DNA of 45,011 bases from Gemmatimonadota bacterium (GTDB lineage Bacteria; Gemmatimonadota; Gemmatimonadetes; Gemmatimonadales; GWC2-71-9). The notes under the pieces are model-generated. The model saw only the letters and a program-made list of their open reading frames with translations. It was not told the DNA's origin and did not search any database. The DNA lies in the NCBI GenBank assembly GCA_022566515.1, contig JADFIT010000008.1:1-45011 (forward strand). The letters are read 5' to 3'. Both the position numbers and the translations under genes were made by a program. Below, in pieces: positions 29,421 through 37,506 of the stretch (its first letter is position 1; each line of letters begins with the position of its first letter).

Positions 29421-30566
29421 GTGAGCAACAACGATTGTCTTGGAGTTTTGGAAGTTCTCGGCAACGGCGCGGCGTTTATCCGCCGGAAGGAAGCGTGCTA
29501 TACGCCCGGAAAGCGAGACGTCTACGTCGGGCCGAAATTGGTGCGCAAATACGGCCTCCGAACGGGAGATGAAATTTCCGGCGTGGTGGGTAAGCGGCCC
29601 CGCAACGGTAAGAGCGCCCCGCTGGCGAAACTGGACGCCATAAACGGCCGGCCCCCCGAGTCTCTCGGCCACCGTCCGGAGTTCGAAAAACTCGGCGCGC
29701 AGCATCCAGACGAGCAGCTCTCCCTCGAGTGCGCACGGACCATCCGCGGCCAACCCGACTACACCAACCGAATCATCGATCTGCTCTGCCCGTTCGGGAA
29801 GGGCCAGCGAGCACTCATAGTGTCACCACCGAAAGCCGGCAAGACGATGATTCTCCAGTCCGTGGCGCAAGGCATATCCACGAACTACCCCGAGTGTACA
29901 CTGTTCATTGTTCTGGTGGACGAGCGACCGGAGGAAGTGACGGAGATGGAGCTTGCGGGATTCGGAGAGGTTTTTGCATCGAGCTTCGATCATCCTCCAT
30001 CCCGGCATGTGGCTGTGGCGGAGATGTGCGTGCAACGGGCGAGACGGCGGGTGGAAATGGGTGAAGACGTGGTGATCATCTTGGACTCCATCACGAGATT
30101 GGCACGCGCGTACAACACGGTGGAGGAGGGTAGTGGACGAACCCTGTCGGGAGGGCTCGATGCGACGTCCATGGAAAAGCCAAAACGTTTCCTCGGGAGC
30201 GCCCGCAAAATCAACACGGCCAAGGGAGGTGGCTCGCTTAGTATCGTGGCGACGGCCTTGGTGGATACGGGCTCGAAAATGGACCAGGTGATCTTCGAAG
30301 AGTTCAAGGGCACTGGAAATAGCGAATTGCTCTTGAGCCGCGAATTGGCGGATCGCCGCATCTACCCGGCCATCGATCTCGTGGCCAGTGCGACCAGACG
30401 CGAGGAACTTCTCTTGTCCGATGACGCGCTGGCGGCATCCCGAGCGATGCGACGCGAACTCAGCAACGCTACCCCCGTTGACGCCATGAAGAGGCTGTTG
30501 AGCGACATGAAGTCGACCAAATCAAACGAAGAACTCGTGAGTATGGTGGTCGCCCGGAGCCGGTAA
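29421..30566 (+). CDS. rho: Transcription termination factor Rho (short N-terminus)
   Basis: GKGQRALIVSPPKAGKT; VLVDERPEEVTEM; SFDHPPSRHVAVAEM; ILDSITRLARAYNT; TALVDTGSKMDQVIFEEFKGTGNSELLLSR. GTG start. Confidence 0.93.
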   Translation: MSNNDCLGVLEVLGNGAAFIRRKEACYTPGKRDVYVGPKLVRKYGLRTGDEISGVVGKRPRNGKSAPLAKLDAINGRPPESLGHRPEFEKLGAQHPDEQLSLECARTIRGQPDYTNRIIDLLCPFGKGQRALIVSPPKAGKTMILQSVAQGISTNYPECTLFIVLVDERPEEVTEMELAGFGEVFASSFDHPPSRHVAVAEMCVQRARRRVEMGEDVVIILDSITRLARAYNTVEEGSGRTLSGGLDATSMEKPKRFLGSARKINTAKGGGSLSIVATALVDTGSKMDQVIFEEFKGTGNSELLLSRELADRRIYPAIDLVASATRREELLLSDDALAASRAMRRELSNATPVDAMKRLLSDMKSTKSNEELVSMVVARSR

Positions 30567-30747: not shown

Positions 30748-33321
30748 TCAGAAGTGTAGGAAGCTCTGGAACTTGAAGGACCACTCGAAATTTTCCGCCG
30801 CCGGCGACCACACATCGACATTGGCCACCAGCATGTTGCGGCCCGCCATGCGTAACGCGATCCCAGGAGTAAACAGCCAGCCGCCGGCGTTTGCAGCGTC
30901 CGTGTCCGGATCCGCCCAACTCAGCCGGGCTAGCGGCTCCACCGCCGTAAAGCGGCTGGATCCGGTGATCGGGAAGCGGTAGCTCACAACACCCTGTGCG
31001 GTGAGGAACGTGGACGGGTCGCCGGTTGCATCCAGATTGAGCCAGTTCTGGCCGGCGAGAAAGCCGGCTTGCAGGTGAAACTCGTCTCCGTACCGCCCGA
31101 TCTCGATATCTCCCCCGTATGCCACCGCGTACTCGTTGGCGGTGGTGGAGTCGAAGTAATCGTGGACTCCGACGTTGGCCCCGAGGCGCACGTGGGAAGC
31201 TGCCTGTACTACCACTCGAGCGGTGTATGACTTGGTGCCGTTCTCATCAGGCTCATCGGCTCCGGTACCGTTCGTGATGGAGAATCGATACTCCAACTCG
31301 TCGGTGACTCGACCGTCGACGAGAATTCCGATGTCGCGGTCGGAATACTTGAGCCCCTGCGTCAACCGGCTCCAAGAGCACACGCCGCCGGGCCCGGCAC
31401 ATGCGTCCACGCCGTCGATTTTTCCGGTTCGTTCGATCGTCAGGATTTGTGTGGAACTGTACAGCTCAAAGATGTCGAACGGTCGCTTGAACTGGCCGAA
31501 CGACAAGCGAAAAGCGGGATCGAAGTTGAGCCGCAGATAGGCGTCCTTGAGGCTGAGTTCGCCTTCACCGAAATCCGGCTGGATACGCCCTTCAATCAAG
31601 TCGTTGACTCGTATATGGGCCGTAAACCGCGCTCGACGCAGAAGGAACTCCGACGAGCGGGTGCCATCTACCGAGGTTGTCCGGTACTGCATTTGGACCC
31701 GCCCGGTAAGGGTGATCTGGACGGCGCCAGAGTCGAGCTGAACCTGGGCGCCCGCCGCGCTCGGCGCCAGCAGTGCGACCAGCGCGCCCAACCAGTGAAC
31801 TGCCCTTAGGACGGTTTTCATCGGCATCCAGTCAAATGTTCGAAAGTGCGCTTTGGAAAGAAACCGCGCGGACATCAATCCTGCGTCGGCCCCTGCGGTG
31901 GGGGGGGGTGGGGGTGGGGAAGGTTCTTCCTCGGCTGGTGGTTCCGGTATATCGCCACCGTCGCTTGCCGGTGACGCCTCAGGCGTGAGATCCACGATAT
32001 TGGGCTCAAAGAATACCTCCCGGAGTGCAGGAAGACCGAGTGATTGATCGAACGCGGGCACTGGGAGGTCGGCTGCGGTCTCTGAAGGAGGTTGTGTGGC
32101 GAAGGGTCGGAAGAACGTATCGCCGAAGGCGTTGAGTCTGCCTTTCTCGATGATGAAAACGAAGATGGCGCACAGCAGGATCGTGAAGAAGATCACTGCG
32201 AAGACCGTACTCCGCACTATTTCACCGTTGGAGAGGCCCATCTGTAGCGGCAGCGCTGCCAGCACCGCGGCGGCCAGGCCTTTGGGGATTAGGGCCGTCA
32301 TGAGCATGGCATCCCGGCGCGTCACGGAGCGAGGGGCGAGCAACCGTACCATGATCGATCGCCCGCCGATCGCGATCACTGCTACGATCAAACCGACCGC
32401 GAACGTGCGTGGGTCATCGAATGTGATCGAGATCCCCAGGAAAACAAAGAAAAACGTCTTCACCAAGAAGACAGCCTCCGCAAAGAACGTCCGCTCCACG
32501 TCGGAGAATCCAGCCAATCGGAACGTGATGAATTTCCCTAGGATGCGCTGTGGGATGTTGGGAAAATTCGCCACGCCGATGCCGAACGAAAGGGCGGCGA
32601 TGGCACCGCTGTATCCCCAGATCTCCGTCAGCCCGAACAGGATCAAGACGTAGGCGATGGTGGTGAATACAGTGTTGGGGATCTGGCGGATTTTCGGCAG
32701 GATCGCGGACCAGATGAATGCCCCGCCGCCCCCGATCAATGCAGCGACGAGAAACGACGCGGAAACGTCGCCCAGCATCACTCCGGCTGATATACCCTGT
32801 CCCGACTGGAGGCCCCGAATCAAGCCGAGACTCAGAACTATGGCGAGCACGTCTGTCAGAGCCGATTCCAAGAGGAGGATCGTGCTCGTCCGATCGCTGA
32901 CCCGGAGGATACGGATGAGAGGCACCACAACGGCGGACGAAGTACCACCGAGAATCATTCCGATGAGAAGAGCGGTGAGCGAATCGATCGGCAAGAGAAA
33001 ATCGGCTATGTACATGACCAGCAGAACGGTCAGTGCGAAAGTGGCGATCGAGAGGACCAACGTGTCACGCGCCGATCTCTTGAGGTCCATCATGTTGAGG
33101 TGGATACCGCCTTCGAAGAGAATCACGACTAGGGCGAGGGTCGTGAACACCGGTCCCACCTTGCCGAAATCCGCAGGCGTCACGATTCCCAAGGCGGGAC
33201 CGATGACGATGCCGGCGAGCATGAGCACGAGCACATCGGGGACTTTGGTTCGCTCGAAGAAGCCGGTCAGGAAATGGCCGGCGAAGACCAAAAGACCGAT
33301 GCTGAGGATGGTGATTTCCAC
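30748..33321 (-). CDS. Cation:proton antiporter (CPA family, N-terminal) fused in frame to a phosphate-selective-porin-like (OprP/OprO) outer-membrane protein
   Basis: N-terminal MEITILSIGLLVFAGHFLTGFFERTKVPDVLVLMLAGIVIGPALG, LEGGIHLNMMDLKRSARDTL; Pro-rich linker EPPAEEEPSPPPPPPTAG; internal signal peptide MKTVLRAVHWLGALVALLAPSAAGAQ; then FLLRRARFTAHIRVNDLIEGRIQPDFGEGELSLKDAYLRLNFDPAFRLSFGQFKRPFD. Confidence 0.85.
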   Translation of the reverse strand: MEITILSIGLLVFAGHFLTGFFERTKVPDVLVLMLAGIVIGPALGIVTPADFGKVGPVFTTLALVVILFEGGIHLNMMDLKRSARDTLVLSIATFALTVLLVMYIADFLLPIDSLTALLIGMILGGTSSAVVVPLIRILRVSDRTSTILLLESALTDVLAIVLSLGLIRGLQSGQGISAGVMLGDVSASFLVAALIGGGGAFIWSAILPKIRQIPNTVFTTIAYVLILFGLTEIWGYSGAIAALSFGIGVANFPNIPQRILGKFITFRLAGFSDVERTFFAEAVFLVKTFFFVFLGISITFDDPRTFAVGLIVAVIAIGGRSIMVRLLAPRSVTRRDAMLMTALIPKGLAAAVLAALPLQMGLSNGEIVRSTVFAVIFFTILLCAIFVFIIEKGRLNAFGDTFFRPFATQPPSETAADLPVPAFDQSLGLPALREVFFEPNIVDLTPEASPASDGGDIPEPPAEEEPSPPPPPPTAGADAGLMSARFLSKAHFRTFDWMPMKTVLRAVHWLGALVALLAPSAAGAQVQLDSGAVQITLTGRVQMQYRTTSVDGTRSSEFLLRRARFTAHIRVNDLIEGRIQPDFGEGELSLKDAYLRLNFDPAFRLSFGQFKRPFDIFELYSSTQILTIERTGKIDGVDACAGPGGVCSWSRLTQGLKYSDRDIGILVDGRVTDELEYRFSITNGTGADEPDENGTKSYTARVVVQAASHVRLGANVGVHDYFDSTTANEYAVAYGGDIEIGRYGDEFHLQAGFLAGQNWLNLDATGDPSTFLTAQGVVSYRFPITGSSRFTAVEPLARLSWADPDTDAANAGGWLFTPGIALRMAGRNMLVANVDVWSPAAENFEWSFKFQSFLHF

Positions 33322-33638: not shown

Positions 33639-34265
33639 TTGGCTGACCGACCGACAACGCTGAAGGCGGTGCCCGGCAACGTAAATGCGGCCGAAGGCGG
33701 GTTCGAGAAGGAGACGCTGGACGCGCTGGACCGCGTATACCGGTTTGCCCTCCAACTGACAAGGGATCCGTGCGACTGCGACGATTTGGTGCAGGACACG
33801 TTCCTGAGGGCGTACCGCAGCCGGCACCAATATCGGTTGGGAACAAACTGCGCGGCGTGGCTCTTTACGATATGCCACCACCTATGGATCCAAAAACGAC
33901 AGCGGGAGAGACGGATAACGACCTGGGAGGAGTCAGACCTCGATGAGATCGCCGCGACTCGGAGATTCCAAAGCGGGGCGGTCGATCTGTCGCTCCGGCG
34001 GGTTATGGAGCTGCCAGAATTCGATGAGGTCTTGAGACGCGCCTTGGCGGTGCTTCCGGAGATTTACCGAACACCCGTTATCATTATAGACGTGGAAGAT
34101 CAAACCTATGTGTCGGCCGCCGGCATTCTGGACGTTCCCGTCGGGACGGTCCGTTCGCGTTTGTTTCGCGGGCGCCGGCTGCTTCAGCGCGAGCTGGTCG
34201 CCTACGCCGAAGATGCTGGTCTTATTTCAGGACGTCGCAGGGCGTACGCACGACCTGCTTCGTAA
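33639..34265 (+). CDS. ECF-type RNA polymerase sigma factor
   Basis: LDRVYRFALQLTRDPCDCDDLVQDTFLRAYRSRHQY; AAWLFTICHHLWIQKRQRE; LDVPVGTVRSRLFRGRRLLQREL. TTG start with GGAAGGAG RBS. Confidence 0.92.
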   Translation: MADRPTTLKAVPGNVNAAEGGFEKETLDALDRVYRFALQLTRDPCDCDDLVQDTFLRAYRSRHQYRLGTNCAAWLFTICHHLWIQKRQRERRITTWEESDLDEIAATRRFQSGAVDLSLRRVMELPEFDEVLRRALAVLPEIYRTPVIIIDVEDQTYVSAAGILDVPVGTVRSRLFRGRRLLQRELVAYAEDAGLISGRRRAYARPAS

Positions 34266-34298
34266 TTACTTCATTATCAATCAACAGAGGAGAAATGT

Positions 34299-34694
34299 AT
34301 GAAACGGTTGGTCTCTAGCCTTGGGGCTTTGGCTTTGGTGGTTGTGCTTACTCCGGCTGCTACCAGCGCCCAGATGGGCGACATGCCGAAAGGCGAGGAA
34401 GTCACGGTGGAGGGAACAGTGGTCGATCTCGACTGCAAGTTCCGCAACGGCCAGTCGGGTGACGGTCACCGGATGTGTGCTCAGGTTTGCGCTGATGCGG
34501 GCCTGCCGCTAGCGATTCTGGGCGACGACGGCAAGTTGTACATGATTGTCGGCGGCGGGATGCCTGGCGATCCTGTGGCGAAGCACAACGCGAAACTCAA
34601 GGATTTCGCCGAGCAGCACGTCGTGGTCCACGGTAAGGCCTATCAGGCGGGTGGTGCGTTCGCGCTGACGATCGAGTCAATCGAGCGTTCGTGA
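34299..34694 (+). CDS. Small secreted protein, OB-fold-like with conserved Cys residues
   Basis: Signal peptide MKRLVSSLGALALVVVLTPAATSAQ; VEGTVVDLDCKFRNGQSGDGHRMCAQVCADAGLPLAIL. Confidence 0.75.
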   Translation: MKRLVSSLGALALVVVLTPAATSAQMGDMPKGEEVTVEGTVVDLDCKFRNGQSGDGHRMCAQVCADAGLPLAILGDDGKLYMIVGGGMPGDPVAKHNAKLKDFAEQHVVVHGKAYQAGGAFALTIESIERS

Positions 34695-36265
34695 GCACTG
34701 AGTCGAACGGGATGGCGGGCCGGAGTAGTACGCGGCCCGCCATCGTCGTTTTTGTCACCGCAGCCCTTGCAGTTGGGTTGGTAGCGGTGGTTTTCTCCCG
34801 TGGAGCGCGTGAGCCGGTGCGGGGACCCATCGCCTTGCCCAATCCCGATGCTGCTGCCCCGGTCGAATCGATCGCCGGAGGCGTCAGGTACGTATCCACG
34901 ATGGCGGCGCCGGAGTATCTCGTGGTCGATACTGTTCGGCCGGTGCGTGAGCCGGTGCGCCTCCTGTTCCTTCAGGGACAGGTTGCCCAGCCGACCCCCG
35001 ATGGCGGCGTGGTGACGACGGAAGCCGGCGGCGTGCTGTATGTCGATACCAAGCTGCGAATCCATCGCATTCCGATACATGTAGAGGGGCGCGAGATCGT
35101 GAGCGTGGCACCGGCCCCGGACAATGGACTTTGGGCCGTTTCCGGTGAAGGCGAACTGCTCAGGCTCAACGGGCAGGGAGAGATGATCGGCAATACGCGA
35201 CAGACGACATTCGTCTTCTCGTACGTCGCCAGTGACCCGCGTGGCACGGCCTATCTCTTTCGTTCCCCGACGCAACCGGCGTTCCGTCCGGTGTTTGGAT
35301 CAACGCCGCTCCTTCTGCGGATGGATGAGCAAGGTGAAGTGGACGCAGTAGTGGGCAACGGGGTCGTCCCAGCCGACTTCATGCTGGCGCACCTGGCCAG
35401 CTCGGGACGCGTGGCCATTGCCGATTCCGTCATTTTCTTCGCCCCGTTCATCCGGGACGAAGTGATCGCCCTGACAACAGACGGGGACACACTGTGGGTT
35501 GCCAAGCGTGGTCTGCCGCAGGCCGTGAAAGAGGCTCGGTTTGAGGTTGTGGACATGCAGCCCATGGTAGACTATGCGCCGGTCAATACGGGCATCGCTC
35601 TCGGACCCGACGGGCGCTTGTACGTGTTGTCGGTTCCCGGCTTCTCTACCGCAACGAGTCGGATCGACGTCTTCGATACGGAGAACGGAGATTTGTTGCG
35701 CTCCGGGATTGTAGACGCGCCCCTGCCGACACTCGCCGCCGACAAGGATGGGCGAGTCTATCTACTGAACGAACTTGAACTGCTGACCGGTGTGCCGCCT
35801 CGCGAGCGGGCCCTGTTCAGCCCGTTCGACCTCGAGTTGCTCAACGGCGGGCGCGTGACGTCGGCTGATGTCGAAGGGAAGGTTGTGTTGATCAACTTCT
35901 GGGCCAGCTGGTGCGCGCCATGCCGCGAAGAAATGCCGTCGCTGGACACGCTACGCCAAAGTATCAGCCACGAAGATTTCGTTTTTCTAACGTTCAACGA
36001 AGACGTTAGGCTGAGCCCGGCGAAGAAATTCCTCGAGCAGTTCGGCTCGGACTTTCCGGTGGCTCTGGGGCATGGTGACTTGAGACGGCAATACCACTAC
36101 GTGGGGTTGCCGTTTACCGTGCTGCTGGACCGTCAAGGGAGAGTGGTCAGCCGATGGATCGGCTATGCCGGTGCGGAGCAACTCCAGGGCATCCGCTCGA
36201 TCGTCACCGCTGAACTCAACAGGATAGAAAGCATGGGTCCCATGGACCATGCTGGATCTCACTAG
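34691..36265 (+). CDS. Membrane-anchored beta-propeller-like protein with C-terminal TlpA-family thioredoxin domain
   Basis: N-terminal TM; repeated GxLYVLSVPGF/GRVYLLNELELL-type segments; VVLINFWASWCAPCREEMPSLDTLRQ. GTGA overlap with the upstream gene. Confidence 0.87.
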   Translation: MSTESNGMAGRSSTRPAIVVFVTAALAVGLVAVVFSRGAREPVRGPIALPNPDAAAPVESIAGGVRYVSTMAAPEYLVVDTVRPVREPVRLLFLQGQVAQPTPDGGVVTTEAGGVLYVDTKLRIHRIPIHVEGREIVSVAPAPDNGLWAVSGEGELLRLNGQGEMIGNTRQTTFVFSYVASDPRGTAYLFRSPTQPAFRPVFGSTPLLLRMDEQGEVDAVVGNGVVPADFMLAHLASSGRVAIADSVIFFAPFIRDEVIALTTDGDTLWVAKRGLPQAVKEARFEVVDMQPMVDYAPVNTGIALGPDGRLYVLSVPGFSTATSRIDVFDTENGDLLRSGIVDAPLPTLAADKDGRVYLLNELELLTGVPPRERALFSPFDLELLNGGRVTSADVEGKVVLINFWASWCAPCREEMPSLDTLRQSISHEDFVFLTFNEDVRLSPAKKFLEQFGSDFPVALGHGDLRRQYHYVGLPFTVLLDRQGRVVSRWIGYAGAEQLQGIRSIVTAELNRIESMGPMDHAGSH

Positions 36266-36378: not shown

Positions 36379-37506
36379 CTACTTGACGACCCGCGTTTCC
36401 GGTTTGAAGACGCCCCAAGCGAACCAGAAGTGGTTGCCGTGGACGATCGGAATCAACTGCTTGCCGGTAAGCGGTCCGTCGATCGCGTGACCGAGGATGT
36501 TCCACGTGGATTCGGTCTCGCGATCGGTGAATCGCCCGTCGCCGTCGGGCGTGAACCGAAGCGTCCGCCCCTCCAGGCGGCGGTCGAAGACGCCGGTGGA
36601 TCCGACGTCGCGCCCCTTGGCGATGGTGGAATTGTCCACGGCACTGGCCGTGCCGGGCGCCCAGAACACCACCAGCGGTGTCTCACCCACCTGCTCTGTG
36701 ATGACGCGCTTCTTCCTCAACTTGGAAAACGCGAACGCGACGCTCTCTCCGTCGATTTCCACTGCGGCAACCCGTTCCATCGCCGGCAGGCGACCGTCGC
36801 GCCGGCCGGAGAAGAACTGAGGCCAGGGACCCCGACCCCGGTCGTAGAACTCGTAGGGATTCCTGCCGTAGTTGCGTTGGAATCCGGTGTCCCGCGACAG
36901 CACCTTGCCGTTGGGGTAGCTCTCCTTGAACGTGCTCCAGCTGATGAGGGGGGAGGGAACGAACGTCAGCCTCCGGCCGGCGTACTCTCCGACGATTCCC
37001 TCACCTATGGCTTGCTGCCACCACGTTTCCGTCTGGCGATCGTACATGATGAGATCGGAGTGGCGTAATCTCCCGGTGGTTCCGAAGTCGAGCAGCAGCC
37101 CGTCAAATCGACGGTCGAACGATATAGCCGTATTGCAGAGCGGACAGTAGGTCACTGTAACGGGCGTTTGACCTACCACATCGTTCACGATCTCGTGCTG
37201 TATGAGAATCTGGAGTGGGTACGCCTTGGCGACGCCATCGAGCGCTACCAGGACGACAGGCTCGCGGTCTTCGAGCCACCGGTCCGCATCCTGCACGCCG
37301 ACGAACTTTGGACGGTCGATGGCCGGGATGCCGTCCTTGGGCGGTCCGCCGGACACGATTTCGTCAAACGATACGGTCTGCTTGCCGAAGTCGGTCTTGA
37401 ATTCCCGTCGGTCGGCGCGCGATTGGGCGAAAAGCTGCCCGCCAACCGTCATCATCAAGAGCGCCGTCAGGGCTAGGATAGGAGCAAATCTGTAAGAGTA
37501 TTTCAT
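36379..37506 (-). CDS. DUF3179 domain-containing secreted protein
   Basis: GGPPKDGIPAIDRPKFVGVQDADRWLEDREPVVLVALDGVAKAYPLQILIQHEIVNDVVGQTPVTVTYCPLCNTAISFDR. Confidence 0.92.
   Translation of the reverse strand: MKYSYRFAPILALTALLMMTVGGQLFAQSRADRREFKTDFGKQTVSFDEIVSGGPPKDGIPAIDRPKFVGVQDADRWLEDREPVVLVALDGVAKAYPLQILIQHEIVNDVVGQTPVTVTYCPLCNTAISFDRRFDGLLLDFGTTGRLRHSDLIMYDRQTETWWQQAIGEGIVGEYAGRRLTFVPSPLISWSTFKESYPNGKVLSRDTGFQRNYGRNPYEFYDRGRGPWPQFFSGRRDGRLPAMERVAAVEIDGESVAFAFSKLRKKRVITEQVGETPLVVFWAPGTASAVDNSTIAKGRDVGSTGVFDRRLEGRTLRFTPDGDGRFTDRETESTWNILGHAIDGPLTGKQLIPIVHGNHFWFAWGVFKPETRVVK

Follow-up and report, generated by a model that had tools for sequence, protein, structure and literature searches.

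The window, a stretch of 45,011 nucleotides, is one of the 241 contigs that make up a 3.59-Mb genome (G000). On its minus strand lies an 857-codon frame without an internal stop, which runs from a GTG at 33321 to a TGA at 30750-30748 (Table 1). Pfam places Na_H_Exchanger (PF00999) at residues 18-388 (E 1.6e-37; 129.7 bits, cut-off 26.2) and Porin_O_P (PF07396) at residues 537-702 (E 1.5e-8). The initial annotation had described a continuous 857-aa frame with an N-terminal antiporter and a C-terminal porin; the frame is real in the assembled sequence, and both domain assignments agree with the Pfam matches. A further neighboring gene, in the region 33639-36265, encodes a protein of 131 aa whose start is signal-like.

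Table 1. Features of the joined frame and of the genes around it, in window positions. Residues are numbered along the 857-aa frame.
Feature	Position	Strand	Evidence or remark
rho transcription termination factor gene	29421..30566	+	Pfam Rho_RNA_bind; convergent with porin; marks the locus in G001 and G003
Porin gene, Porin_O_P, 357 aa, including stop	30748..31821	-	Pfam PF07396
Signal peptide of the porin (residues 501-525), expected cleavage before Q526	31747..31821	-	Position and A-Q end conserved in nine porins
Spacer, 78 bp, residues 475-500 (26 codons), open in porin frame	31822..31899	-	Flat codon-position GC; corresponds to the 108-bp gap of G001
TGA ending antiporter at C7 or C10	31832..31834	-	Translation with altered tract length
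TGA ending antiporter at C8 or C11	31875..31877	-	Translation with altered tract length
Antiporter C-terminal tail, variable, acidic/Pro-rich, residues 424-474	31900..32052	-	Aligns with ends of stand-alone antiporters
C9 homopolymer (G9 on + strand), sets frame	31900..31908	-	Longest homopolymer in the window
Antiporter core, NhaP-type, residues 1-423	32053..33321	-	13 predicted helices; Pfam PF00999; PDB matches
Sigma-70 family factor, regions 2 and 4 only	33639-34265	+	
Thioredoxin-domain protein	34691-36265	+	
DUF3179 protein	36382-37506	-	Relative lies two genes from porin in G003

Residues 8-391 match the NhaP/NapA-type antiporters PaNhaP (4cz8), MjNhaP1 (4czb) and NapA (4bwz) in the PDB by sequence, and these are also the top Foldseek matches of the antiporter model (PaNhaP at TM 0.76 by target length). 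The model has 13 membrane helices, of which those at 114-139 and 335-360 are broken, and its pLDDT is mostly 70-90 over residues 30-410. Two broken helices, which cross each other, are typical of the NhaP-type antiporter fold. D157, the conserved ion-binding Asp of helix 6, corresponds in the alignment to the Asp of the PaNhaP FND motif and does not vary among six relatives. The domain, the predicted fold and the helix-6 Asp all identify this half as a member of the NhaP/NapA-type cation:proton antiporters of the CPA superfamily. A lysine at antiporter residue 288 (K288, 32458-32460) is invariant as well. Experiments place the C-terminus of MjNhaP1 in the cytoplasm (PMC4381896), and the antiporter model together with the solved relatives suggests that the tail here would be cytoplasmic too.

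PF07396 scores above its curated cut-off in all nine aligned porins (this protein and eight relatives), covering mainly the N-terminal half, and this match identifies the C-terminal half of the frame as an outer-membrane porin of the Porin_O_P family. The second signal peptide that had been proposed mid-protein is present: MKTVLRAVHWLGALVALLAPSAAGA, starting at residue 501 and followed by Q, aligns with the starts of the relatives' porins, and its A-Q end is common to the nine (judged by eye, with no dedicated predictor). The porin model, examined for a 16-strand beta-barrel, is strand-rich with a pLDDT of 32 from an alignment of only two sequences, and the porin half of the full-length model is likewise of low confidence. 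The sequence upstream of the porin ATG at 31821 contains no clear ribosome-binding site. No promoter-like site was found for the porin either; the same scan found none for any gene in the window.

The stretch between the two domains had been read as one linker of about 70 aa. Its acidic and Pro-rich character is confirmed for the first part, residues 424-474, which align with the divergent tails of stand-alone antiporters 456-469 aa long. It is not one linker: the remainder, residues 475-500, is a 78-bp spacer without counterpart in any relative's protein. GC at the three codon positions is 0.54/0.58/0.62 in the spacer, compared with 0.58/0.43/0.76 in the antiporter core; over 26 codons, this flatness would be a weak sign of non-coding DNA. 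Only one of the three frames through the spacer lacks a stop. A spacer of 26 codons would be open by chance with a computed P of about 0.40-0.45, and an open in-frame run at least as long lies upstream of about 31 of 58 unfused phylum porins, as estimated from match coordinates. The open frame across the spacer is thus not beyond chance expectation.

What joins the genes is the C9 tract, which leads into this sole stop-free frame. Translation with altered tract lengths joins the genes only at lengths 6, 9 and 12. With C8 or C11 the antiporter stops at 481-482 aa and with C7 or C10 at 495-496 aa, so that at neighboring lengths it is only slightly longer than the antiporters of relatives. The stop used at C8/C11 shares bases with an ATG of the porin frame (TGATG, 31877-31873). 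Such stop/start overlaps are common among linked genes; none of the relatives' porins starts as far upstream as this ATG.

The named relatives of this genome are Gemmatimonadota metagenome assemblies. Besides G000, three genomes represent the genus (G001, G002 and G003). The sister genome G001 (Gemmatimonadetes KW1-S21_32, JAPULZ010000044) keeps the order rho, porin, antiporter, with protein identities of 75% and 56%, and is the sole relative with both genes at the rho locus. There they are two genes, one for a 462-aa antiporter that ends in ...EEENTPPPPSPV and one for a 357-aa porin. Where the window has C9, the C run of G001 is shorter and interrupted. In G003 the porin adjoins rho and the antiporter is absent from the locus; the gene immediately upstream of the porin is there the 328-aa gene that in G001 is found upstream of the antiporter. 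G002, which is 72% complete, has neither gene. Presence and absence of the antiporter across the genus while the porin stays is as expected of two genes.

Across 102 genomes of the family no other match covers both parts; the remaining antiporters are 456-469 aa long, and the remaining porins are encoded separately, at different loci. No second joint match was found in 395 sampled genomes of the phylum, where few candidates were scored per genome, so that this result adds support without being exhaustive. Among porins of the phylum, those with open frames of 648-882 aa (in G213, G318, G338, G415, G395 and G266) were rejected as fusions, the upstream parts being not antiporters but GC-rich shadow frames and, in G318, an unrelated protein. 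In the plasmid collection only the antiporter half has matches and no record covers 80% of the query, and a literature search found no antiporter-porin fusion. One porin relative (L039; G086:C70:2435-3475) and one antiporter relative (L010; G044:C78:288-1538) each have one in-frame stop codon inside the matched stretch, which may reflect gene decay, assembly error or match overrun.

The genome contains 11 tracts of at least 9 C/G. Three of them sit 30 bp or less from the end of a contig (contigs C42, C122 and C221; loci L092, L094 and L097), far more than chance predicts (P about 1e-5), which shows an assembly prone to breaking at tracts of this kind. This weakness makes a miscount of C9 at the junction in the window plausible. 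C9 occurs at 14 positions in the genome, compared with 68-176 expected from base composition. G003 has 249 C9 positions, compared with 14-30 in its three congeners, which is a wide spread for a single genus.

These features suggest, with a probability of about 0.9, that the locus holds ordinary neighboring antiporter and porin genes whose common frame is accidental and whose two proteins act separately in two membranes. The locus would consist of a gene for an NhaP-type inner-membrane antiporter and, downstream of it in the same orientation, a gene for an O/P-type outer-membrane porin; the non-conserved C9 at the end of the former would carry the reading frame past the antiporter stop into the porin. 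This reading is favored by the two genes of G001, the porin beside rho without an antiporter in G003, the separate genes of the family and the lack of a second joint match in the phylum sample, as well as by the dependence of the join on tract length, the chance level of the open spacer, the weakness of the assembly at such tracts, the conserved position of the signal peptide and the probably cytoplasmic antiporter C-terminus. Against an accidental pairing count the uninterrupted assembled sequence, with no sign that C9 is wrong, and a porin ATG with neither a clear ribosome-binding site nor a promoter-like site, although the scan gave no such site for any gene.

Within this reading of two neighboring genes, we slightly favor the case in which the tract was miscounted in the metagenome assembly, or in which C9 is one of several lengths present in the population; the antiporter would then end after 481-496 aa. 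That C9 is true and fixed is a tentative second case. Ribosomes finishing the antiporter would then continue into the porin and produce a joined nascent chain; the porin signal peptide, coming after a cytoplasmic tail, would act as a normal internal signal, and signal peptidase would probably cut before Q526. Two mature proteins are thus expected even with C9, given an intact porin signal peptide and an antiporter tail that is probably cytoplasmic. Our claim is limited to there being two mature products and no selected fusion; read-through itself may occur.

A genuine fusion protein is not supported, since relatives keep two genes and the frame depends on C9. If the fused frame were fixed and useful, porin synthesis would be tied to the antiporter and signal peptidase would separate the two during synthesis. 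The uninterrupted frame, the intact internal signal peptide and the weak ribosome-binding site of the porin would all fit such a polyprotein, which should however be conserved; with two genes in G001, no antiporter at the locus in G003, and flat codon-position GC in the spacer, it is very unlikely. Even less probable is a switch in which slippage of the C tract would yield two separate proteins at some times and a joined chain at others. The tract sits exactly where a change of length decides fusion, and a comparable arrangement has been proposed for HCAN_0660/0661 of Helicobacter canadensis (PMC2823697). Against a switch, the G001 locus lacks the tract, a length of nine falls below that of the G10-G14 tracts given for H. 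canadensis (PMC2823697), and the rarity of C9 relative to composition gives no sign of a tract-using genome. If C9 were nevertheless real and variable, two transporters would alternate with an antiporter-porin chain cut at the internal signal peptide, and an outer-membrane pore would be tied to an inner-membrane antiporter.

The initial annotation had also raised a single polypeptide across both membranes, with the antiporter in the inner and the porin in the outer one. Such an envelope-spanning fusion would be striking if true. The continuous frame and nothing else speaks for it; a conserved-type signal peptide with a cleavage site stands between the parts, the linker is probably cytoplasmic, which would leave the barrel tethered by the signal peptide alone, and the arrangement occurs in no relative among the family and phylum genomes. 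The genus, family and phylum searches found the two as separate genes in relatives, which is the first half of what the annotation itself had named as refuting its proposal, and the frame depends on the tract. A stable protein bridging the envelope is therefore very unlikely, and the least likely of the explanations considered. Preferable is the fallback of the annotation, in which translation of the porin starts anew or the chain is cleaved at its internal signal peptide. As a caution, a homopolymer at a gene end can, in GC-rich assemblies from metagenomes, join neighbors into a false fusion that gene callers accept.

Compared with known systems, the porin half matches the phosphate-selective porin O/P family (PF07396) mainly in its N-terminal half, and a PDB profile search with it returned no match to a solved OprP/OprO structure. 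The antiporter half resembles the NhaP/NapA-type antiporters in sequence, fold and its 13 helices, two of them broken, and differs from them in its Pro-rich tail without a known domain. Identity to these antiporters is about 24%, and Thr-Asp stands in place of the NhaP Asn-Asp (antiporter residues 153-157, 32851-32865); its ion and stoichiometry may differ from those of classical NhaP. The G001 locus has the same gene order, but as two genes with a 108-bp gap and without the C9 tract. In HCAN_0660/HCAN_0661, a homopolymer near the 3' end of the first gene would, at every third tract length, merge it with its neighbor, and the tract varied from G11 to G16 in sequencing reads (PMC2823697). The locus described here shares the 3'-end homopolymer with that pair and differs in that one assembled length is known, nine.
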